A stretch of 64,000 bases of DNA from Cognatundibacterium oligocarboniphilum (GTDB lineage: Bacteria; Pseudomonadota; Gammaproteobacteria; Burkholderiales; Burkholderiaceae_D). Within the stretch, counting starts at the first letter, position 1; each line of letters begins with the position of its first letter. This document shows, in pieces, positions 9,688-21,838 of the stretch. Both the position numbers and the translations under genes were made by a program. A model generated the notes under the pieces. The model saw only the letters and a program-made list of their open reading frames with translations, made no database searches and had not been told where the DNA came from. The DNA lies in contig NZ_JABXYJ010000006.1 of assembly GCF_013377855.1 (NCBI RefSeq), positions 164,377-228,376 on the forward strand, in the 5' to 3' direction.

Positions 9688-10602
9688 TCAGTGTTTTTTA
9701 TGCAGTGCACATGCCAGCTTCGCTCCGGCACGGGCATTATTTTTAACCAGTGCAATATTCGTCGCCAGACTGCGGCCGCCCGACAATTCCTTGATACGTG
9801 CCAGCAGAAATGGCGTTACCGCCTTGCCGCCAATTCCCTGTTGCGCGGCTTCCTGCAAAGCCTGAACGGTGATCTGCTCAATCTCTGCACGCGGCATCGC
9901 ATCTTCTTCCGGCACCGGGTTGGCAATCACAATACCGCCACGCAATCCCAGCTGCCATTTGGTGTGAATAAAATCGGCCTGCTGTTCCGCGCTATCGAGC
10001 TGGAAATCCGCAGAATATCCGCTGTCGCGCGTAAAAAATGCCGGAAACGCGCGCTGCCCGATACTGACTACAGGCACGCCATACGTTTCCAGATATTCCA
10101 GCGTCAGACCCAGATCGAGTATAGACTTGGCACCGGCACAGACCACTGCCACCGAAGTCTGCGCCAGCTCCTGCAAGTCGGCGGAAATATCGAAGCTGGT
10201 TTCCGCGCCACGGTGAACCCCGCCTATGCCCCCGGTCACAAAGACCTGGATATCCGCCAGCGCTGCGCAAATCATCGTTGCCGCCACCGTAGTGGCGCCC
10301 AGCTGACGACTTGCCAGCACATAAGCCAGATCACGACGGCTCACCTTAATGGCGTCGGCAGACTGCCCCAGACGGATCAGGTCGGCATCTGACAAACCGA
10401 TATGGATTTTTCCCTCCATGACCGCGATCGTCGCAGGCACCGCCCCCTGTTCGCGAATAATCTGCTCGACCTCCCTGGCCGTCTGCACATTCTGCGGATA
10501 GGGCATCCCGTGTGAAATGATGGTCGACTCCAGCGCCACAACCGGTTTACCGGTCATTTTTGCGGCACGGACTTCATCAGAAAATACCAGATAAGATTGC
10601 AT
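9688..10602 (-). CDS. psuG: pseudouridine-5'-phosphate glycosidase
   Basis: A 304-residue PsuG-family protein. It reversibly cleaves the C-C glycosidic bond of pseudouridine 5'-phosphate to uracil and ribose 5-phosphate. Conserved blocks include [17 protein letters not shown] (catalytic Glu25), the [16 protein letters not shown] region, [21 protein letters not shown] (catalytic Lys) and ANPVPEE. The ATG overlaps the psuK stop as TAATG, so translation is coupled to the kinase that supplies its substrate. Confidence 0.93.
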
Positions 10603-11702
10603 TAGGATTCCTCATCAAAAATAGCAGGGTTGATTGCCGCAGCAACCGTGGTCTCGGTTTGTATCGTGTAAGCAGCCAATTGCAGGCCTCGCTGGCAGGC
10701 CAGGTGCAAATCATCCGGCACCCGTTGCAATGACCAGCAGACACCGGCAGAAAAAGCATCACCAGCTCCCGTCACATCCTGTACCGCCGCTGGCAAGGCC
10801 GGGAGTATGCCAAAACCCTGCCCGGCGCGCCGGTTCGTCATCCCGACACCCTGCGCCCCCAGGCTGACCAGCACATCTTCCACGCCTTGCTGCTGCAGAT
10901 GCCCGCAGGCCTGTGCCAGGCTGGCGACATCCGGCAAATGCCGCCCTGCGCGCTGCTCCAGCTCAGAACGGTTTAAAATCAGCAAACGCACACCCTGCAG
11001 ATCATCGGGTAAATGCACCATCTTCGGCAGGGAAACCGCGATCAGAATCAGTGGTTTGACGGTGCGTCTGGCTTCTTCCTGTAAAAAACTGATACTGGCC
11101 CGGCATAAATTCAGATCGGCAATCAGCATCACTGCGGCAGCCAGTCCGCTCTGCCGTTGCTGCAATATCTCCGGAGTCAGGGCGCTGCAAAGTTCCATCT
11201 CGGAAAACGCCATTTCCATTTCCCCCGCAGGATTCAGCACAGCGGTGTACGTGCCGCTGGCTGCACCGGGCAGAATCAGACTGTGTTCCGTCTGGATGCC
11301 CAGTGCCCCGGCATGTTTCAGCAAGGACTGGCCGGCAGCATCATCGCCAACCGCGCTCAACAGACTGCAAAGACCTCCCAGCCGCGCCAGATTTTCCGCA
11401 ATATTCCGTGCCACGCCGCCGAAGGATTCACGCTGCACGACCGGATTTGAAGTTCCGTTCTGCAAACTGGCGGACAGCCTGAGTTTCCGGTCAATATTTG
11501 CACCGCCGATACACAGAAAAGTACGGTGATCCGGCAATACATAGGCACGTCCCAGAATCCGCCCCTCTTTGGTCAGTTGTGCGATATAGCCAGCCACGGC
11601 AGAGCGCGACAGGCTCAGATGCGTCGCCAGCTCTTGCTGACTGAGGTAAGGATTTGCCTGTATCAATGCGAGAATCTGTTCTTTATTCGTTTCCGCTTTC
11701 AT
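10602..11702 (-). CDS. psuK: PfkB-family pseudouridine kinase with N-terminal winged-helix domain
   Basis: A 366-residue fusion. Residues ~1-60 ([20 protein letters not shown], then [20 protein letters not shown]) are a winged-helix DNA-binding domain; the rest is a PfkB sugar kinase starting [11 protein letters not shown] and ending with the anionic-hole motif [12 protein letters not shown]. In this family and next to psuG it should phosphorylate pseudouridine at the 5' position. E. coli YeiI has the same HTH-kinase layout, so a related nucleoside is possible. The start at 11702 (MKAETNKEQ) was chosen at the edge of the HTH; in-frame starts up to 11771 exist. The fused HTH suggests autoregulation through a palindrome upstream. 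Confidence 0.85.
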
Positions 11703-11782
11703 GAAACCCCTTGTCGATCCGCCGCTCATCGAGGCTGAGCGTAACATTTGTGCAGGGAACATCTTATTCACTACTCAGCAAT

Positions 11783-11796
11783 AAAACAATTGTTTT
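11783..11796. promoter_or_regulatory. perfect 14-bp palindrome upstream of psuKG
   Basis: AAAACAATTGTTTT is a perfect palindrome 81 bp before the psuK start codon in an AT-rich stretch suited to a promoter. It is a plausible operator for the winged-helix domain fused to PsuK. Short A/T palindromes occur by chance, so confidence is limited. Confidence 0.35.
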
Positions 11797-12157
11797 AAAA
11801 AATAAACTTTTGTTCTTGTTAAATTTAACATCCGATTCTCATCGACCTCTGCACCTCAGGTCGCACCAACCTGACACGATCAGGTATACCTGGCAGCCAA
11901 AAGGGTTTCTTGCCAGTTTCTTGCCACTCTTTTGATCATTTCTTGCTGAAATTACCCGCTCAAACGCCAAAATATTTCTCATGCGATACCGGCAAACGGC
12001 ATGATCCAATTCCTATTTGACAGCACCGTCTGTCTGCCCGACAATCTCGCACGCTCTTCTGATACGGTAGAACAAAAATACAGTGCCCGTCGTCTGATTT
12101 TTCTGCTCCGGCCGAACACCGGATTGCACAAAATTTCACCAAAAATCCGGGAATCGC

Positions 12158-12187
12158 TTGACGAGCGGAAGTAGCCCATAGTTAAAT
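12158..12187 (+). promoter_or_regulatory. sigma70-like promoter of the nucleoside operon
   Basis: TTGACG (12158-12163) and TTAAAT (12182-12187) are separated by 18 bp. The predicted transcription start falls at or inside the LacI-type operator that follows, about 45 bp before the ribokinase start codon, a normal repressor arrangement. Confidence 0.5.
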
Positions 12188-12199
12188 ACGAAAACGATT

Positions 12200-12215
12200 G
12201 CGCAAACGATTGCGC
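12200..12215. promoter_or_regulatory. LacI-family operator
   Basis: GCGCAAACGATTGCGC is a near-perfect palindrome around a central CG (six of seven arm positions pair), the hallmark of LacI/PurR/RbsR-type sites. An overlapping direct repeat, ACGATTGCGCA twice at an 11-bp step (from about 12193), could hold a second half-site. It lies just downstream of the putative -10. The regulator is not encoded in the window. Confidence 0.6.
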
Positions 12216-12242
12216 ACCTTCTAATATTGAGAAAAAAGTATC

Positions 12243-13172
12243 ATGAAGCCACGCATCACAGTAGCCGGCAGCGTCAACATGGATCTGGTTTTCCGCACAC
12301 CGCGCATGCCCGCTTTAGGCGAAACTTTGCACGGTCATGAGTTCCGGCAGATTCCAGGCGGTAAAGGTGCCAACCAGGCAGTGGCTGCCGCCCGGCAAGG
12401 TGCTGACGTCAGCTTCATTGGCGCAGTCGGTGACGACGGTTTTGGTGATGTTTCACGCCAGACGCTGGCAGCTGAGGGAATTGATCTGCGTTATCTGACG
12501 CGGGTTGCCGGAGTAGCGACCGGCGTCGCCGGCATATTGGTTGAAGACGGCGGGGACAACAGTATCGTGCTGGCCGCCGGTGCCAATGCCAGCGTATCGG
12601 TTGCCCAGATTGAAGCCGCCCGCGATACGATTTGCAATGCCGGCATGCTGCTGTGCCAGCTCGAAATACCCTTGGCAAGCGTCACCCATGCCATCCAGAT
12701 CGCGCACGACACCGGAGTCAAGGTGATCCTGAATCCGGCACCGGCGCAGGATCTTGATCCTGCTTTGCTGGCGCAGGTCGATTACCTGATCCTGAACGAA
12801 ACGGAAGCCACCCAACTGAGCCAGATCGAAGTGACCGACCAGACCAGCGCCCGTTATGCGGCAGAAAAACTGCTGGCGCTCGGAACTGGTGCCGTGTTGC
12901 TGACGATGGGCGGTCATGGCGCACTGATTGCGCAGACGGGTGAATGCCAGTTTATTCCAGCGATTAAAGTGAATGTGGTCGATACCACAGCAGCGGGCGA
13001 TACTTTTGTCGGCGCATTCGCCGTCGGCATTGCGAATGGTCTCAGCATTGCTGACGCCAGCCGTGAAGCGCAATACACCGCCGCACTGACGGTGACCCGG
13101 CTCGGTGCGCAGACATCGATTCCGCAACGTCAGGAAGTGCTGGATTTCATGGCGGCCCGTCAGGCCGCCTGA
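12243..13172 (+). CDS. rbsK: ribokinase (PfkB family)
   Basis: A 309-residue PfkB-family kinase closest in layout to ribokinase, which makes ribose 5-phosphate from ribose and ATP. It begins ITVAGSVNMDLVFRTPRMP, has the family-1 signature GGKGANQAVAAAR near residues 40-52, the substrate/NPAP region LNPAPAQ, NETEA in the linker, and the catalytic DTTAAGDTFVGAFA with Asp as base. It is the first gene of the plus-strand nucleoside operon, behind a LacI-type operator, so it most likely phosphorylates ribose released by the downstream nucleoside hydrolase. A different pentose or nucleoside substrate cannot be excluded. Confidence 0.88.
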   Translation: MKPRITVAGSVNMDLVFRTPRMPALGETLHGHEFRQIPGGKGANQAVAAARQGADVSFIGAVGDDGFGDVSRQTLAAEGIDLRYLTRVAGVATGVAGILVEDGGDNSIVLAAGANASVSVAQIEAARDTICNAGMLLCQLEIPLASVTHAIQIAHDTGVKVILNPAPAQDLDPALLAQVDYLILNETEATQLSQIEVTDQTSARYAAEKLLALGTGAVLLTMGGHGALIAQTGECQFIPAIKVNVVDTTAAGDTFVGAFAVGIANGLSIADASREAQYTAALTVTRLGAQTSIPQRQEVLDFMAARQAA

Positions 13173-13349
13173 AGCCGTCTCAACGGATTTCAGGGCCCGT
13201 TGCTGTATTTGATAAAATTTTTCCCGCATGAAGTGAAGCCGCACCGCTCCATGTTAGGCTGGTGAAAGCAAGCGTGAAATGACCATCCCGCTGACCATCG
13301 TTTTCTACCAGCTGTTTTCACTGAATGATCTCTGAATAAGGAAGCTCTC

Positions 13350-14345
13350 ATGAAACTTAAACCATTCTGCCTGACTCTGGCTGGTCTGCTCACAGCAGCC
13401 AGTGTTTATGCCGCAGATCCGAAGTTTGCAGTGATTTACGATGCAGGTGGTAAATTTGATAAATCTTTCAACCAGTCTGCTTCCGAAGGTGCGGAACGCT
13501 TTAAAAAAGAAACCAAGATCGGCTTCATGGAAGTTCAGGTCGCCAGCGACACCCAGACTGAACAGGTATTACGCAATCTGGCGCGTAAAAAAGTCGATCT
13601 GATCGCCTCCATCGGTTTTGCCCAGGCACAGGCAGTCCAGAATGTCGCCAAAGAATTTCCTGCCACAAAATTCGTTCTGATCGATGGCGTCGCCAAAGGC
13701 GATAACGTCAGTTCAGTGCTGTTTAAAGAACAGGAAGGCTCTTATCTGGTCGGCGTGGCAGCAGCGATTGCCAGCAAATCGAAAAAAGTCGGCTTCATCG
13801 GCGGCATGGATATTCCACTGATCCGCAATTTCTCCTGCGGCTATGTGCAGGGCGTCAAAGCAACGGATGCCAAAGTCGAGATCGTGCAGAATATGGTCGG
13901 CACCACTACCTCCGCATGGAATGACCCTGCCAAAGGCGGTGAACTGGCACGAGCCCAGTTTGAACGCGGCGTCGATGTGATTTTTGCAGCAGCGGGTGGC
14001 AGCGGTATGGGTACTCTGCAGGCCGTCAAAGAAAAAGGCAAGCTCGCTATCGGCGTTGACTCGAATCAGAATTACATGTATCCGGGCAGCATGCTGACAT
14101 CCATGGTCAAGCGCGTCGATCAGGTCATTTATGACAGTTTCATGCAAATGAAAAACGGTAACTGGAAAGCCGGCGTCGCCTATAAAGGTTTGAAAGAAGG
14201 CGGTGTGGACTGGGCGCTGGACAAGGATAACCGCAGTGTGGTCAGTGCGGATATGGAAAAGCGTGTCAATGCCGCCAAGCAGGACATCATCAGCGGTAAA
14301 GTGAAAGTAGTTGATTTCCGCGATGCCAACAAGTGTCCGGTCTGA
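13350..14345 (+). CDS. BMP-family ABC transporter substrate-binding protein (nucleoside importer)
   Basis: A 331-residue periplasmic binding protein of the basic membrane protein (BMP) family. It has a cleavable signal peptide, MKLKPFCLTLAGLLTAASVYA, with cleavage after Ala-Tyr-Ala near residue 22, and no lipobox. The mature start FAVIYDAGGKFDKSFNQSA carries the BMP motif DxGxxxDxSFN, and later GGMDIPLIRNF and GVDSNQN are family-typical ligand-pocket segments. BMP proteins with this type of ATPase and permeases bind purine and other nucleosides. A GGAAGC site precedes the ATG. A strong hairpin after the stop may raise its mRNA level relative to the membrane components. Confidence 0.9.
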   Translation: MKLKPFCLTLAGLLTAASVYAADPKFAVIYDAGGKFDKSFNQSASEGAERFKKETKIGFMEVQVASDTQTEQVLRNLARKKVDLIASIGFAQAQAVQNVAKEFPATKFVLIDGVAKGDNVSSVLFKEQEGSYLVGVAAAIASKSKKVGFIGGMDIPLIRNFSCGYVQGVKATDAKVEIVQNMVGTTTSAWNDPAKGGELARAQFERGVDVIFAAAGGSGMGTLQAVKEKGKLAIGVDSNQNYMYPGSMLTSMVKRVDQVIYDSFMQMKNGNWKAGVAYKGLKEGGVDWALDKDNRSVVSADMEKRVNAAKQDIISGKVKVVDFRDANKCPV

Positions 14346-14360
14346 CGACATATTCCTTGC

Positions 14361-14383
14361 CGGGGCGCAGATGATGCGCCCCG
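14361..14383 (+). promoter_or_regulatory. intercistronic GC-rich hairpin between binding protein and ATPase
   Basis: A perfect 9-bp stem, CGGGGCGCA / TGCGCCCCG, closes a GATGA loop 15 nt after the binding-protein stop. No T-run follows, so it is more likely an mRNA-stabilising or partial-attenuation hairpin than a full terminator. Confidence 0.5.
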
Positions 14384-14448
14384 CATTGCGTCGTCACCCC
14401 TGATTCCGAATCATGCCCCTTCTTCGCCGAACCTAACATCCTGAACGT

Positions 14449-15978
14449 ATGCAGCCAGCAGTCGAATTTCAACACATCTCCAAACGCTTTGGTGCGGTAC
14501 AAGCCAATCGCGATGTGAGCTTCTCCATTGCGGAAGGATCAATCCACGGTGTCATCGGCGAAAATGGTGCGGGCAAGTCCACGCTCATGAGTATCCTGTA
14601 CGGCTACTATCGCGCAGATAGTGGCAAATTACTCATCAATGGCCAGCAACACGATATCCGCAACAGCCATGAGGCAATCGATCTCGGAATCGGCATGGTG
14701 CATCAGCACTTTATGCTGGTCGAGAACATGACCGTGCTCGACAATGTGATGCTGGGCAGCGAAGGTGGCTTCCGTCTGCAAAAAAACCGTAAGCAGCTTG
14801 AGCAGCAATTGCGTGACATCTGTCAGCGCTATTCACTCGACGTCGATCCGCTCGATAAGATAGAAGATTTATCCGTCGGGGTTCAGCAAAGAGTAGAAAT
14901 CCTGAAGCAGATCTATCGCAGCGCGAACATCCTGATTCTGGATGAGCCGACCGCGGTGCTGACGGTACAGGAAACCGCCTCGCTGTTTGCCGTCTTGCGC
15001 CTGTTCAAAGAGCAGGGCAAAACCATCATTCTGATTACTCACAAGCTGCAGGAAATTCTCGACATCACCGACGAAGTAACCGTGATGCGCGCGGGTACCG
15101 TCGTCGGTTCTGTGCAGACAGCAAACACTAATAAAGAACAACTGGCTGAACTGATGGTGGGTCGCCCTATCGAAACACATCTGCCGCGTGCACCGTATGC
15201 GCCAGGTGAAACGGTGCTCGATGTAAAGGGTCTGAACCTGATCAATGCGCAGCAAGTCAGCCTGCTCAAAGATCTGAATTTCAATATCCGCGCCGGAGAA
15301 ATCGTCGCCATCGCTGGCGTCTCCGGCAATGGACAAAGCGAACTGCTGGAAGTGCTGAGCGGTATGCATCTGCCGAGCAGCGGCACCGTCAGCATGCAAG
15401 GAAAACCACTGCCATTTGCGGGCCGCAAGGATGCTGACGGCCTGCCGGCGACTTTCCGCGAGCTTGGTATTGCCCACGTCCCGGAAGACCGTTTGCGTGA
15501 CGGGGTTGTGAAGAATTTTTCGGTGATGATGAACAGCTTTCTCGGTTACCAGAAAAAGCTGGGCAAAGCCTTTGGCCTGCTCGACTACAAAACCATACTA
15601 AAAACCTGTAACGAACTGCTGAGCAAATTTGATGTGCGCCCGGCCGACCCGCATTTGCGCATCGCCCTGCTGTCTGGTGGTAATCAGCAAAAAGTGGTGA
15701 TGGCGCGCGAAATGGCATCGTCACCCAAACTGATGCTGGTCGGCCAGCCAACACGCGGTGTCGATATCGGCACCATAGAGAGCCTGCACGCACGCTTGCT
15801 GGCGATGCGCGATGCCGGTGTCGCCATCCTGTTAGTGTCAGTGGAACTCGAAGAAGTCCGCGCGCTGGCTGACCGCATCTTGGTGATGTCCGGTGGCTGC
15901 ATTACCGGCGAACTGAAAGTAGAAGAATTTGATGCGACCCGCATCGGCCTGCTGATGGGCGGATTACATAAGCACTAA
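14449..15978 (+). CDS. ABC transporter ATP-binding protein, two nucleotide-binding domains (nucleoside importer)
   Basis: A 509-residue double ATPase like those of sugar/nucleoside importers. Domain 1 (about 1-245) has Walker A GENGAGKST, a divergent signature LSVGVQQR and Walker B LILDEPTAVL. Domain 2 (about 255-509) has a degenerate Walker A GVSGNGQSE, the signature LSGGNQQK and a Walker B region reading VGQPTRGVD in place of DEPTRG. From memory, the QPTRG form occurs in other BMP-type nucleoside ATPases and so is not damage. It energises transport through the two permeases that follow. Confidence 0.92.
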   Translation: MQPAVEFQHISKRFGAVQANRDVSFSIAEGSIHGVIGENGAGKSTLMSILYGYYRADSGKLLINGQQHDIRNSHEAIDLGIGMVHQHFMLVENMTVLDNVMLGSEGGFRLQKNRKQLEQQLRDICQRYSLDVDPLDKIEDLSVGVQQRVEILKQIYRSANILILDEPTAVLTVQETASLFAVLRLFKEQGKTIILITHKLQEILDITDEVTVMRAGTVVGSVQTANTNKEQLAELMVGRPIETHLPRAPYAPGETVLDVKGLNLINAQQVSLLKDLNFNIRAGEIVAIAGVSGNGQSELLEVLSGMHLPSSGTVSMQGKPLPFAGRKDADGLPATFRELGIAHVPEDRLRDGVVKNFSVMMNSFLGYQKKLGKAFGLLDYKTILKTCNELLSKFDVRPADPHLRIALLSGGNQQKVVMAREMASSPKLMLVGQPTRGVDIGTIESLHARLLAMRDAGVAILLVSVELEEVRALADRILVMSGGCITGELKVEEFDATRIGLLMGGLHKH

Positions 15979-16032
15979 GCAGCAGCCTGTCAAAAACCGA
16001 ATATAAGCGAACAAACAAGCGACGAACCACGT

Positions 16033-17115
16033 ATGAATCAAGCCGATCTTCCCCGCTGGGCCACCGCCTTTGCCCTGCCTTTACTGAATTTGCTGTCTGC
16101 CCTGCTAGTCGCAGCGGGTGTGATTTATCTGCTGGGTGAAAGCCCGCTGGAGTCGCTGGGCATACTGCTGAATGCCGCTGTTTTCAATCCTGAAGGAATG
16201 GGTTACACCCTGTTCTACGCCACCACATTCATCTTCACCGGATTGTCGGTGTCAATTGCGATGCAAGCGGGCTTATTCAATATCGGCAGCGAGGGTCAGA
16301 TGTATCTGGGCGGTCTCGGGCTGACACTGGTATTGCTGGCTTTTGATGCCAGCTTACCGACATGGCTGTTGATACCGCTGGCAATAGCAGGCAGCGCGAT
16401 TTTCGGTGCGGCATGGGCTTTTTTACCTGGCTATCTGCAGGCAAAGCGTGGCAGCCACGTCGTCGTCACCACCATCATGTTCAACTTCATCGCCGCCAGC
16501 CTGATGAATTACATCATCGTCAGCTTTCTGATTCCTGCCGGTGAACAAAACACCGCCAGCCGGGTCTTTGCCGACAGTGCATGGCTGCCTAAACTGAATG
16601 GCATCCTTCCTATCCTTGGTGAAACACCGCTGAATATCAGCTTCATCATGGCCTTGCTGGCATTGCTCATTTACGGTATTGCTGTGTGGCGCACAACCTG
16701 GGGTTATCAATTACGCGCAACAGGTCTGAACCAACACGCGGCGCACTATGCCGGTATTTCTATCAGTAAAACCATCATCATTGCGATGATGATTTCCGGC
16801 GCACTGGCGGGTCTGGCATCCGTCAATTCCGTGATGGGTTCCACCCATTATCTGGGATTGAATTTCCCTGCCGGCGCCGGTTTCATCGGCATCGCCGTTG
16901 CGCTGATGGGACGCCAGCATCCGATAGGGATTTTGCTGTCATCGATACTGTTCGGCGCGCTGATTCAGGGCGGCTTTGATCTGTCGCTGGAAAAACCGAA
17001 TATTCCGACCGAAACTTTTATTTTCATTCAGGGCCTGATCATTCTGTTTTGCGGTGCGATGGAAAATCTGTATGCCCCGGCGATTTCTGCTTTGCTCAAG
17101 CGTAAGGAAAAATGA
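16033..17115 (+). CDS. ABC transporter permease 1 (nucleoside importer)
   Basis: A 360-residue inner-membrane permease of the branched-chain amino acid/sugar-type permease superfamily. About eight to ten hydrophobic helices are visible, starting LLNLLSALLVAAGVIYLLG. The conserved block FNIGSEGQMYLGG (about residues 81-93) is typical of the first permease of BMP-type nucleoside transporters, as is GSHVVVTTIMFNFIA. It partners the permease encoded next; their genes overlap by 4 nt (ATGA, 17112-17115). Confidence 0.92.
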   Translation: MNQADLPRWATAFALPLLNLLSALLVAAGVIYLLGESPLESLGILLNAAVFNPEGMGYTLFYATTFIFTGLSVSIAMQAGLFNIGSEGQMYLGGLGLTLVLLAFDASLPTWLLIPLAIAGSAIFGAAWAFLPGYLQAKRGSHVVVTTIMFNFIAASLMNYIIVSFLIPAGEQNTASRVFADSAWLPKLNGILPILGETPLNISFIMALLALLIYGIAVWRTTWGYQLRATGLNQHAAHYAGISISKTIIIAMMISGALAGLASVNSVMGSTHYLGLNFPAGAGFIGIAVALMGRQHPIGILLSSILFGALIQGGFDLSLEKPNIPTETFIFIQGLIILFCGAMENLYAPAISALLKRKEK

Positions 17116-18083
17116 TGTTTGATGATTTTCAATTTTCCAGCATTCTGGTCTCTACCATCCGTAATGCACCGGTATTAATGTTTGCAGCGATGGCAGGTCT
17201 GTTTGCCGAACGCAGCGGCGTGGTTGATCTGGCACTCGAAGGCAAGATGCTGGCGGCGGCCTTTGTTTCTGCAGCGGTCGCATACGCTACGCAAAACCCG
17301 TGGTTCGGCATACTCGCCGGTGTCGGCATTTCTGCGGCCATCGCCTTGTTGCAGGGCTTCGTCAGCATCACGCAAAAAGGTAACCAGCTGGTCGCTGGTA
17401 TTGCGTTGAATATCGCCCTGAGCGGTCTGACCTTTGTACTGGCGCAGTTTTTCTTCATGCAGGGCGGACGCACGCCTGACCTTGGCTCTGCCCGTCTGTT
17501 TGATATCGTTTTGCCGGGTTCAGATGCGGTGGCAGGTATTCCGTTTCTCGGCTGGTTTTACACCAAGCTGATCGGCGGCCACAGCGCGCTGGTATATCTG
17601 GCGTTTGCCCTGATACCGCTGGTGCACTGGATCCTGTATCACACCCGTTTCGGCCTGCGTCTGCGTGCCGTCGGTGAAAACCCGCACGCCGCAGATGCCG
17701 CTGGCATTAATGTCGAGCGCACCCGCTTTATGGCGATGCTGTGCGCCGGTGTGCTGTGTTCATTCTCGGGCGCGTATCTGTCCATCGTACAAAGTGGTTT
17801 CTTCCTGCGCGATATGTCGGCCGGTAATGGTTATCTGGCGCTGACTGCGCTGGTGTTCGGTAACTGGCGGCCGCTGCAAACAGCGCTCGGTTGCCTGATG
17901 TTCGGTTTTTTCGCTGCTCTGCAAGTTCAGATCGAAGGCGTGGTCTTCCCTGGCCTGGGCAAAGTACCGGGATCATTGATACAGATGATTCCTTATGTAG
18001 TCACCGTCGTCGTTCTTGCGGGCCTGATGGCGAAATCCGTCGCGCCGAAGGCGATAGGCGTGCCGTTTGTAAAGTCAAGATAA
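17112..18083 (+). CDS. ABC transporter permease 2 (nucleoside importer)
   Basis: A 323-residue integral membrane permease with about eight to ten hydrophobic helices. The segment AGLFAERSGVVDLALEGKML near residues 28-47 corresponds to the second permease of this transporter class, and FGLRLRAVGENPHAAD AAGI is the coupling-helix region. Translation is coupled to permease 1 through a 4-nt overlap. With the binding protein and double ATPase it completes a full importer. A 173-bp gap follows before the hydrolase gene. Confidence 0.92.
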   Translation: MMFDDFQFSSILVSTIRNAPVLMFAAMAGLFAERSGVVDLALEGKMLAAAFVSAAVAYATQNPWFGILAGVGISAAIALLQGFVSITQKGNQLVAGIALNIALSGLTFVLAQFFFMQGGRTPDLGSARLFDIVLPGSDAVAGIPFLGWFYTKLIGGHSALVYLAFALIPLVHWILYHTRFGLRLRAVGENPHAADAAGINVERTRFMAMLCAGVLCSFSGAYLSIVQSGFFLRDMSAGNGYLALTALVFGNWRPLQTALGCLMFGFFAALQVQIEGVVFPGLGKVPGSLIQMIPYVVTVVVLAGLMAKSVAPKAIGVPFVKSR

Positions 18084-18256
18084 AAGACTATAAAACCTGC
18101 TGGCAAACTGCATGGGGCTGACCCGTGCCGGCTGCCGGTGATTTATTTTTTAAATCGACAACGTTACGGCCTCCTTGAACCAGGTCAAACACAACAAATT
18201 GCTTCAAGCTGGGTTCTGTTCAATGGCCAGCTGAAGTTAATTCCTGGAGTATTTCC

Positions 18257-19249
18257 ATGCAAGCAAAACATAAAGTCATTTTCGATACGGACCCGGGTGT
18301 AGATGACGCAATGGCGCTGTATTTCGCGCTGGCGCATCCTGATATCGATGTCGTCGGTATCACCACCACCTTCGGTAACGTGTATGTCGAACAGGCAACA
18401 ACTAACGCGCTCTACCTGACCCGCATCGCAGGCCGCACTATTCCCGTGGCACAAGGTGTGAATGTGCCGTTTGCGAAAGCCGCCGGCACGCCGCCTGACT
18501 TCATCCACGGCGCAGATGGCCTCGGCAATCTGCCATCGCGTATCGACGTCGGCGGTAAAGCGGAAGTGGAAAGCGCAGCAGAATTCATCGTCAAGATGGC
18601 GCGTCAGCATCCGGGTGAAATCACACTGGTCGCGGTGGGCCCGCTGGGCAATCTGGGTCTGGCACTGAAAATGGAACCACAACTGCCTAAGCTGCTGAAA
18701 AAAGTCGTGCTGATGGCAGGTGCTGTTGATGAACCGGGCAATGTCTCGCCTGTTGCAGAAGCCAATGTCTGGAATGATCCGGATGCTGCTGATCTGGTCT
18801 TCACCGCAGGCTGGGATCTGACCATGGTGGGTCTGGATGTGACTCACCGCGTGGTCTTGCCATCCAGCTTCTTTGCGCGTCTGGCGGAACAACATAAACA
18901 CGTCGCGATGGATACCCTGTCGCACGCAGTGAATTTCTACGCGAACTTCTACCAAAGCATACGCCCTGACCTCGGTCACGCCTGCTACGGTCACGATGTG
19001 CTGGCCTTTGTCTGGCTGGTCGCGCCGGAAATCTTCGAAACGCAAAACGGTCGCGTGCGCGTTGCCAAAGAAGGCATCGGCAATGGTCAGACCATGATGG
19101 CAAAACTGGCGATTCCTTACCCGCAAGCAGGTTGGGAAGCCAGCAAACCAGAAACCCGCGTCTGCATGAAAGTCGATGCCGACGCCTGCGCTAAATTAAT
19201 CGACCAGACCTTGTCCGGCGACTGGCTGAAACCAGCACTGGCAAAATAA
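18257..19249 (+). CDS. inosine/uridine-preferring nucleoside hydrolase
   Basis: A 330-residue nucleoside hydrolase that splits ribonucleosides into base and ribose using a Ca2+-activated water. The metal site is VIFDTDPGVDDAMAL with Asp10, Asp12, Asp16 and Asp17; KVVLMAGAVDEPGNV and EANVWNDPDAADLVF form the substrate pocket; GHDVLAF supplies the late conserved His-Asp. No signal peptide, so it acts in the cytosol on imported substrate. It lies downstream of the importer and 11 bp before the oxygenase gene. Base preference cannot be fixed from sequence. Confidence 0.93.
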   Translation: MQAKHKVIFDTDPGVDDAMALYFALAHPDIDVVGITTTFGNVYVEQATTNALYLTRIAGRTIPVAQGVNVPFAKAAGTPPDFIHGADGLGNLPSRIDVGGKAEVESAAEFIVKMARQHPGEITLVAVGPLGNLGLALKMEPQLPKLLKKVVLMAGAVDEPGNVSPVAEANVWNDPDAADLVFTAGWDLTMVGLDVTHRVVLPSSFFARLAEQHKHVAMDTLSHAVNFYANFYQSIRPDLGHACYGHDVLAFVWLVAPEIFETQNGRVRVAKEGIGNGQTMMAKLAIPYPQAGWEASKPETRVCMKVDADACAKLIDQTLSGDWLKPALAK

Positions 19250-19260
19250 GGGGAACCGTC

Positions 19261-20100
19261 ATGCTGATACAACCAGTTGATTACCGTGATCCGGATGCGG
19301 CACGCAAATTCACCGAAAGCCTGCACAACACCGGCTTTGGCGTACTGACCAATCATCCTTTATCGCAAAATCTGCTCAATACCATTTATCAGGAATGGTA
19401 TGAGTTCTTTCAGACGGATGCGAAAAACAAATACACCTTTACGGAAAAAATGGACGGCTATTTCTCGCCGAAAATTTCCGAAACCGCCAAGGGTTATGCC
19501 AAGCGCGACCTGAAAGAGTTTTACCACGTCTACCCGTGGGGACAATATCCATCCGAGGTGTCTAAAGCTGCGCTGGAATACTACGAACACGGCAACAAAC
19601 TCGCGACCGAATTGCTGCAATGGGTCGAAGATTACACACCGGCAGACATCAAGGCCAAATATTCCATGCCCTTGTCTGACATGATCACCGACAGCGATCT
19701 GACCCTGCTGCGCGTGCTGCACTATCCACCGCTGACCGGCGATGAAGAGCCAGATGCAGTGCGGGCTGCAGCACATGGCGACATCAATCTGCTGACCGTG
19801 CTGCCAGCCGCGACGCAGGCTGGTTTGCAGGTATTGGGCAAAGACAATACCTGGCATGACGTGCCGTGCGACTTTGGCATGCTGATCGTCAACATCGGTG
19901 ACATGCTCGATGAAGCCTCACAAGGTTATTACCCTTCGACCATTCACCGCGTGCTGAACCCGACCGGCGAAGAAGCGAAGAAATCCCGTATTTCGCTGCC
20001 ACTGTTCCTGCATCCGCGTCCAGACGTCGTCCTGTCTGAACGTCACACATCCGGCAGCTACCTGCAGGAACGTTTGCGCGAACTGGGCGTCAAAAAATAA
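19261..20100 (+). CDS. 2-oxoglutarate/Fe(II)-dependent oxygenase (isopenicillin N synthase-like)
   Basis: A 279-residue double-stranded beta-helix oxygenase. Iron ligands are visible as His172-x-Asp174 (AAHGDINLLTVL) and His229 (STIHRVLNP); the 2-oxoglutarate carboxylate would be bound by Arg243 in SRISLPLF. All catalytic residues are present, so it should be active. Only 11 bp separate it from the nucleoside hydrolase gene, with a GGGGAA ribosome-binding site between, so it is firmly part of the nucleoside operon. A hairpin terminator follows. Its substrate is unknown. IPNS-fold dioxygenases acting on thymine and on pyrimidine deoxynucleosides are known in fungi, so oxidation of a modified base or nucleoside is a reasonable guess. 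Confidence 0.88.
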   Translation: MLIQPVDYRDPDAARKFTESLHNTGFGVLTNHPLSQNLLNTIYQEWYEFFQTDAKNKYTFTEKMDGYFSPKISETAKGYAKRDLKEFYHVYPWGQYPSEVSKAALEYYEHGNKLATELLQWVEDYTPADIKAKYSMPLSDMITDSDLTLLRVLHYPPLTGDEEPDAVRAAAHGDINLLTVLPAATQAGLQVLGKDNTWHDVPCDFGMLIVNIGDMLDEASQGYYPSTIHRVLNPTGEEAKKSRISLPLFLHPRPDVVLSERHTSGSYLQERLRELGVKK

Positions 20101-20189
20101 ACTCTCAATACTGCTGCACCTGTCAGGGCAACAATGCGCTGAAGTGCAGAAAATAAGCGCAGCAGATATCAGGGATGAACGTGAACAAG

Positions 20190-20217
20190 AAAGGCATGCT
20201 GGTAAGCATGCCTTTTT
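20190..20217 (+). terminator. rho-independent terminator after the oxygenase gene
   Basis: Stem AAAGGCATGC (20190-20199) pairs with GCATGCCTTT (20206-20215) around a 6-nt loop, running into TTTTT. It ends the importer-hydrolase-oxygenase transcript 90 bp after the oxygenase stop. Confidence 0.8.
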
Positions 20218-20225
20218 AAATAGAC

Positions 20226-20737
<512 letters not shown>

Positions 20738-20891: not shown

Positions 20892-21130
20892 CTAGCCTCC
20901 ACTGAGTGCTCGTTTCAAAGAGGGCGACACATTAAAAATACGAGATAGCCCACTAACCATTTTTGCTTGTTTTATATGACCGTTCTCTTCAAGTAAGTTG
21001 AGTATATAGTCAACAATTACTATGTTTTCGCTAATTAGCTCCTGAATTTCAGCGTTACTTGTCAGCTTCTCGTTCACTATGGCGGAGACTACCGCTTCAA
21101 TCTTACGGTGATAGTCGGGAATAGCTGCTT
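20892..21130 (-). pseudogene. out-of-frame C-terminal tail of the TIR gene
   Basis: Read in the frame starting at GCAGCTATTCCC, this stretch encodes AAIPDYHRKIEAVVSAIVNE and continues to SPSLKRALSGG. It looks like a winged-helix-type tail (ILNLLEENGHIKQAKMVSGL) that similar TIR proteins carry. It joins the TIR frame if one A is restored in the CAAAAG run (plus-strand T run 21129-21132). No good ribosome-binding site or ATG supports an independent gene; the first start-like codon is a GTG at 21077. It could be a real lesion, a phase-variable tract or a sequencing error. Confidence 0.55.
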
Positions 21131-21838
21131 TTGCGTATAAGTCAAGCCCAAAGTGGTTATTTGATACGAAGGAACACCGCCGCTCAGTAATCGTAGAAAG
21201 TCAATATAACCACTGTTATCAAGAATTTCTAAGGAATCGATCAGTTCTTCTTCTGGCACAATTGGTTTGCCATCTTTAAAAAAGATGTGTTCTGGATCAA
21301 CGAAAACGTCTTTTGTATTTAAAACCTCTTCGCAAGACAAACGAAGTACAAGACTATCAATGTTATTTAGCTCTCCGATGGATTGAGCAAACGACTGGAC
21401 GTATTCAGGTGGATGTCCAATGGGTGGTTTGTCATTGGCACCATAGATCGAGGCAACGACACGATCAAAGCTTGAGTCATAAGCTGATAGATCAGTGATA
21501 GATTCCCACAACGTACTTTTAAGTGCCTCTGGGACTTCGCAATCGTCGATAACAATTGGAATAAGCTTGCTGCCGTTGTTGATCCTCTTAACAAAAGCAG
21601 CGTTAAGTTCCTCTCTTACCCACGGCTTTTCTACACTGAACTTTGATAGGACGATGATAATAGCCCTTGCCTCCTTTATTCCCTCCTCAAATATTTTGTC
21701 TACGAGACTATCCCCTGGAAGCATTTCCCATTTATCTAACCAAGCATCAATACCATTTTGACGAAGGCGCTCTGAGAACCGAAGTACAAATCTATCTTTG
21801 TCTTCGCTGGCATGACTAACAAAAACTTTGGGGGACAT
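21089..21838 (-). CDS. TIR-domain protein, apparently truncated by frameshift
   Basis: A 249-residue reading frame. Residues 1-130 form a bacterial TIR domain: KVFVSHASEDKDRFV, then DAWLDKWEMLPGDSL, then KPWVREELNAA with a candidate NADase glutamate (Glu76 or Glu77). Residues ~150-245 are an uncharacterised alpha-helical/winged segment. The frame ends at TITVRLKR, but the next frame continues the protein sensibly for ~80 residues to 20892, so the gene appears to carry a 1-nt deletion in a short A run (see the downstream entry). TIR proteins of this type often act in anti-phage defence by degrading NAD+. The gene is AT-richer than its neighbours, suggesting acquisition. No partner gene is seen beside it. 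Confidence 0.75.
   Translation of the reverse strand: MSPKVFVSHASEDKDRFVLRFSERLRQNGIDAWLDKWEMLPGDSLVDKIFEEGIKEARAIIIVLSKFSVEKPWVREELNAAFVKRINNGSKLIPIVIDDCEVPEALKSTLWESITDLSAYDSSFDRVVASIYGANDKPPIGHPPEYVQSFAQSIGELNNIDSLVLRLSCEEVLNTKDVFVDPEHIFFKDGKPIVPEEELIDSLEILDNSGYIDFLRLLSGGVPSYQITTLGLTYTQKQLFPTITVRLKR

Follow-up and report, generated by a model that had tools for sequence, protein, structure and literature searches.

Gene organisation at the locus

In the genome of Cognatundibacterium oligocarboniphilum, we analysed a gene for a predicted 2-oxoglutarate (2OG)/Fe(II) oxygenase that is built into a nucleoside salvage operon. The gene lies in a stretch of 64,000 nucleotides (contig NZ_JABXYJ010000006.1, positions 164,377 to 228,376), here called the window, from whose first letter all positions are counted. 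Positions 12243-20100 hold a single co-directional run on the forward strand, consisting of a ribokinase gene (rbsK, 12243..13172; TIGR02152, 359.4 bits, above cut-off), the genes for the BMP/PnrA-type binding protein (13350..14345; PF02608, 231.5 bits), the ATPase (14449..15978; PF00005 in two stretches) and the two permeases (16033..17115 and 17112..18083; PF02653 for each) of an ABC importer, a gene for a nucleoside hydrolase (NH) of 330 amino acids (18257..19249; PF01156, 292.2 bits) and the oxygenase gene, which encodes 279 amino acids (19261..20100; PF03171 and DIOX_N). The PfkB, Bmp, ABC_tran and two BPD_transp_2 permease matches upstream of the NH and oxygenase genes all exceed the Pfam cut-offs, and the oxygenase indeed stands behind a complete BMP-type importer and a ribokinase, as had been claimed in an earlier note made from the sequence alone. 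Importer, glycosidase and sugar kinase thus occur together in one co-directional run, which marks the locus as a nucleoside salvage operon. The NH stop codon (TAA, 19247-19249) and the oxygenase start codon (ATG, 19261) are 11 bp apart, the very gap given in that note. PF03171 and PF01156 each have one match in the genome, and these two genes adjoin.

The oxygenase matches PF03171 with 63.5 bits (cut-off 23) and DIOX_N with 40.7 bits (cut-off 27.3). His172, Asp174, His229 and Arg243, which the earlier note had named as iron and 2OG residues, are all at their places, giving an HxD...H triad and an RxS motif. Among 134 representative homologues, Arg243 is kept in 132 and Ser245 in 130. Because the active-site positions are nearly invariant across the homologues, a single function common to the family is likely. 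By full-length homology, same fold and same active site, the protein belongs to the family of SO_2589 from Shewanella oneidensis, whose structure (PDB 3ON7) is labelled 'putative oxygenase' and whose function is listed as undefined in PMC10467617. An ethylene-forming role was considered and dropped, the common fold being all that speaks for it. One genome (L215, also L018) carries two adjacent oxygenase copies, 54-55% and 44% identical to the copy of the window.

Directly 3' of the oxygenase gene lies a terminator-like hairpin on the forward strand (20188..20217; -19.7 kcal/mol, z -5.78) with a U run in its 3' part, so that the unit seems to end with the oxygenase; the hairpin is absent from the list of a consensus scan for terminators. 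The run from ribokinase to oxygenase is likely transcribed as one unit. A pair of pseudouridine-type genes (9688-11771, reverse strand) diverges from this run. The pair comprises a PsuG-type pseudouridine-5'-phosphate glycosidase gene (9688..10602; PF04227, 436.7 bits, a family that we take to carry the PsuG function) and a gene for a pseudouridine-kinase-like PfkB kinase with an N-terminal helix-turn-helix (10602..11771; PF00294 and HTH_24; best NCBIfam match below cut-off). The N-terminal domain of this PsuK-like protein is a winged helix, and the protein may combine the roles of a kinase and a regulator.

Operons for nucleoside salvage that combine a BMP importer with NH and ribokinase are known already, and all their parts are present in the window. 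What sets the present locus apart is a 2OG oxygenase as a further, conserved member. Among titles and abstracts retrieved from PMC with our queries, no description of this oxygenase in a nucleoside operon was found.

Occurrence and gene context of the oxygenase family

To place the locus in a wider context, homologues were surveyed in the window's family, class and phylum. With presence set at an E value of 1e-40 or better, the gene occurs in 18 of 195 genomes of the window's family, its own included, and all 17 relatives that carry it have the NH gene adjacent to it. The class and phylum samples, in both of which the own genome is counted, contain the gene in 39 of 369 and 32 of 398 genomes. 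A total of 160 longer neighbourhoods was then compared, made up of the 80 best of 585 named loci and 80 loci from the family, class and phylum samples, the family being represented by 14 of the 17 relatives (without G431, G455 and G472). Context labels were assigned by tblastn with queries derived from the window and, for a few, from relatives, a procedure that misses divergent nucleoside genes. By these labels an NH, NupC or BMP importer match lies nearby in 43 of the 160 neighbourhoods, namely 14/14 in the family set, 3/38 in the class set, 7/28 in the phylum set and 19/80 in the set of the 80 best.

Where partners are present, they are close. Among the 134 representatives, NH matches lie at most 1.6 kb from the oxygenase in 19 of the 21 with NH, and NupC matches do so in 14 of 15, all of them on the oxygenase strand. 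The genes immediately upstream in the same direction, typed by Pfam for 81 of 92 representatives, include 14 NupC-type transporters, 12 NH, 5 Dus proteins and 2 thymidylate synthases; the 11 left out are L252, L256, L258, L261, L262 and L264, which carry NH upstream, and L055, L056, L061, L227 and L215. The downstream tally covers 78 of 82 (without L112, L091, L121 and L197), and the remaining representatives have no co-directional neighbouring open reading frame under the picking rule, which is mechanical and mis-calls some loci of high GC content. Three importer families occur in oxygenase runs: BMP-ABC, NupC (PF07662) and the NupG type (PF03825). The last was first spotted by eye in L254, one of the 43, where a NupG-type symporter (PF03825, 433 bits) stands between ribokinase and NH. 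In the NupC context, no NH was found nearby by tblastn. A cytidine deaminase gene is present in 7 loci of the 160 neighbourhoods, L258 has an adenosine deaminase gene about 30 bp past the oxygenase, and the downstream tally holds a second adenosine deaminase. Genes of the 5'-nucleotidase type lie downstream of the oxygenase in L072 and L257. L115 is a weak linked case, its BMP-NH cluster starting about 3.5 kb downstream. Two genes further upstream in L091 gave one weak match to a phosphonate-binding model and no match, respectively. In the Comamonadaceae-type loci L062 and L105 (and L060 by cluster), a gene of the sulfite/nitrite reductase type lies downstream of the oxygenase.

On a tree of the 134 representatives and the window protein, built with a quick method, a minimum of 6 changes accounts for the linked/unlinked label, 4 of them forced by starred branches, compared to a mean of 30.7 for shuffled labels, and a four-state context label needs 8. 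Linkage is thus clustered as expected for related rows, but because of the number of changes it is not one inherited block. NH accompanies the oxygenase in a group formed by the window's family and Comamonadaceae-type loci. Another linked group joins Thiolinea and two genomes of the window's class, with ribokinase and NH in L111 and L196 and a BMP importer directly upstream in L216, and Kaistia forms a further one with a Rhizobium that is a weak case. In L224, from another class of the phylum, ribokinase, NH, oxygenase, BMP importer and cytidine deaminase genes form one run. Thirteen Alteromonadaceae-type rows share the order uridine kinase-NupC-oxygenase, and the same uridine kinase/NupC pair is found in Pseudoalteromonas denitrificans, at a separate place in the tree. 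L092, L203, L226, L229, L231 and L233, placed with the Alteromonadaceae or bearing the same family code, are without the NupC link. No NH, NupC or BMP match lies near the one named Shewanella copy compared (L079), nor near L232 and L234, which adjoin it in the tree. Rows on long branches (L206, L251, L189, L202, L224 and others) are unsurely placed. Across several lineages, the oxygenase recurs as a component of modules for nucleoside uptake, and the linkage is stronger than the window alone shows.

Homologues were also seen on contigs of a viral collection (31 loci, L129-L159; 35-50% identity). Three of them that were tested match PHROG 30382, a group of unknown function, as does the window protein. 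Of these loci 29 were viewed, and the neighbours listed include genes for peptide deformylase, ThyX, NAMPT, DNA ligase and phosphoesterase.

Substrate and proposed reaction

The gene context makes it very probable that the oxygenase has a nucleoside, or a compound closely derived from one, as its substrate. The earlier note, which had proposed a route for modified nucleosides or bases, is thereby supported in part: context backs a nucleoside substrate well, and the exact chemistry is what we infer. The absence of a nearby NH in the NupC/uridine kinase context argues for action on the nucleoside and not on the base, and because the deaminase partner varies between cytidine and adenosine deaminase, recognition via the ribose is more likely. 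The pseudouridine-type genes of the divergent pair suggest that the nucleosides stem from RNA, and the oxygenase probably strips a modification, perhaps a methyl group, from recycled RNA building blocks. NH and uridine kinase in general need an unmodified ribonucleoside with a free 2'-OH, an NH termed RK9NH being an exception for 2'-O-methyl.

We therefore favour, with a probability of about 40%, the reading that the oxygenase demethylates a 2'-O-methyl nucleoside, action at the 2' position being held with lower certainty than the nucleoside substrate. Inside the cell, the soluble enzyme would attack the ribose and not the base of the free nucleoside, before the N-glycosidic bond is cleaved or the 5'-OH phosphorylated. 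Hydroxylation of the methyl group would let formaldehyde leave and yield an ordinary ribonucleoside, which NH would split into base and ribose, the latter to be converted by ribokinase to ribose 5-phosphate; in the Alteromonadaceae, uridine kinase would take the demethylated product in place of NH. The FJS/PHYHD1 oxygenases are known to carry out this reaction, removing the methyl group from free 2'-O-methyl nucleosides in a 2OG-dependent manner (PMC12709175). They belong to another Pfam family, PF05721, for which the window oxygenase has no match, PF03171 and PF14226 being its only matches at an E value of 0.001. The same paper (December 2025) states that little has been explored of how 2'-O-methylated nucleosides are broken down, that PHYHD1 demethylation was previously unidentified, and that the E. 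coli strain of the screen cannot naturally metabolise 2'-O-methylcytidine. In a broader and somewhat more tentative form, the SO_2589 family would comprise widespread, also phage-carried, free-nucleoside 2'-O-demethylases of the isopenicillin N synthase (IPNS) fold, of an origin independent of PHYHD1/FJS and with a dedicated import-demethylate-hydrolyse-phosphorylate operon in the window's lineage. If true, nucleoside import would have a genetic tie to a second oxygenase family, unrelated to the first; 3ON7 would gain a function, and an oxygen-dependent step in salvage would be explained.

A number of observations weigh against 2'-O-demethylation. The survey of neighbourhoods that the earlier note had called for bore out linkage in all family relatives and in the 43 loci, but in 117 of the 160 neighbourhoods all three kinds of match (NH, NupC, BMP) are lacking nearby (107 with nothing, 7 shortened neighbourhoods, 2 with thyA and 1 with pyrC), and in the evenly drawn class sample, where just 3 of 38 are linked, 4 more are shortened neighbourhoods. 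Neighbours confined to single lineages, such as dusA and thyA, fit other substrates. RK9NH hydrolyses both uridine and 2'-O-methyluridine (PMC6278475, Table 2), so that a hydrolase alone can cope with a methylated substrate. RK9NH and AgNH resemble the window's NH in their setting, their genes being clustered with an aldolase gene, joined in related genomes by one for ribokinase, and tied to the breakdown of 2'-O-methyl nucleosides; there, however, the hydrolase itself acts on the methylated nucleoside, and the part of PMC6278475 at hand mentions no oxygenase. Moreover, three PhyH (PF05721) proteins in the genome might do the same job, no formaldehyde-handling gene was recognised by Pfam name among the ten window genes scanned, and no residue or structure in this analysis bears on the 2' position. 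As to the operon, promoter-like sites in 11700-20400 are rarer than in shuffles (3 vs 6.8), terminator-like sites of the consensus scan number 14 vs 9.4 in shuffles, and one of the latter kind (18126-18140) lies between permease 2 and NH, although this site alone folds no better than shuffles.

Other substrates were weighed as well. The nearest characterised fold to the one predicted for the oxygenase is that of fungal thymine-7-hydroxylase (T7H) from Neurospora crassa (5C3P-S), which shares the IPNS-like fold, the Fe/2OG site and the position of the base-stacking Phe. This would suit a base-directed oxidase of nucleosides or nucleobases, attacking the methyl group of thymidine, 5-methyluridine, an N-methyl nucleoside or an NH-released base. 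T7H acts on the free base and is 24% identical to the window protein. We consider a base-directed role unlikely, given that Tyr217 of T7H corresponds to Ile175, an Ile in 132 of the 134 representatives (an equivalence set by motif spacing, as the residue after the iron Asp, and not by structural overlay). The inconstant deaminase partner and the lack of a base-catabolism gene among the ten window genes scanned also argue against it, and SpoC and gibberellin 2-oxidase score less than 1.5 Z units from T7H in the fold comparison, which makes the fold weak evidence on the substrate. Alternatively, a 2'-deoxynucleoside 2'-hydroxylase could turn DNA-derived deoxynucleosides into ribonucleosides cleavable by NH. 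Such a fungal nucleoside enzyme exists (PDN2'H, named in PMC12709175), and for RK9NH, one studied NH, cleavage of deoxyuridine and of thymidine is given as 0 percent (PMC6278475 Table 2), so that a hydroxylation would have its place ahead of NH. A separate deoC-deoA-deoD type cluster elsewhere in the window's genome already gives deoxynucleosides a route, so that there is less need for such an enzyme, and the pseudouridine-type genes indicate RNA, not DNA, as the source; this reading is distinctly unlikely.

Another modified RNA-derived nucleoside, such as dihydrouridine (by desaturation) or a thiolated wobble nucleoside, is suggested by dusA, for tRNA dihydrouridine synthase, which lies directly upstream with short gaps or overlap in L188, L195, L200, L209 and L219 and 3-6.6 kb upstream in L193, L201 and L215, and by a DsrC/TusE-type gene upstream in 2 representatives. 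The rows with dusA linkage group in a single region of the tree (supports 88 and 92, not starred), and their arrangement may go back to one ancestral gene order, which leaves this a very unlikely substrate class. Finally, the gene could be a passenger acting on a non-nucleoside substrate (amino acid, ethylene formation or secondary metabolite). Linkage recurs at separate places in the tree and involves three importer types, and the NH and NupC genes are close by and on the oxygenase strand, all of which makes this clearly improbable. Compared to these alternatives, 2'-O-demethylation remains the reading that we favour.

Operator-like palindrome and flanking features

An operator-like palindrome, TGCGCAAACGATTGCGCA, is located at 12199..12216, 26 bp 5' of the ribokinase ATG, and presumably resembles operators of the LacI family. 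Its core motif, GCAANCGNTTGC, has its single match in the window at this site. Of 23 other loci that carry both NH and ribokinase genes, 8 have the motif at most 200 bp upstream of the ribokinase gene. Counted at any place, it occurs in 12 of the 43 nucleoside-linked loci compared to 5 of the 117 remaining ones; after mononucleotide shuffling, the 43 average 0.54 matches.

Past the hairpin, a cytidine deaminase gene on the forward strand (20339..20737; TIGR01354, 145.8 bits, above cut-off) starts 238 bp past the oxygenase, after a repeat-like stretch of 111 bp (20225-20335) that has three more partial matches elsewhere in the genome. Neither this deaminase gene nor the divergent pseudouridine-type pair figures in the earlier note. 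Further downstream, on the reverse strand (21089-21838), a TIR-domain protein is encoded (PF13676, 98.6 bits, and weakly ThsB_TIR), which may serve in defence.
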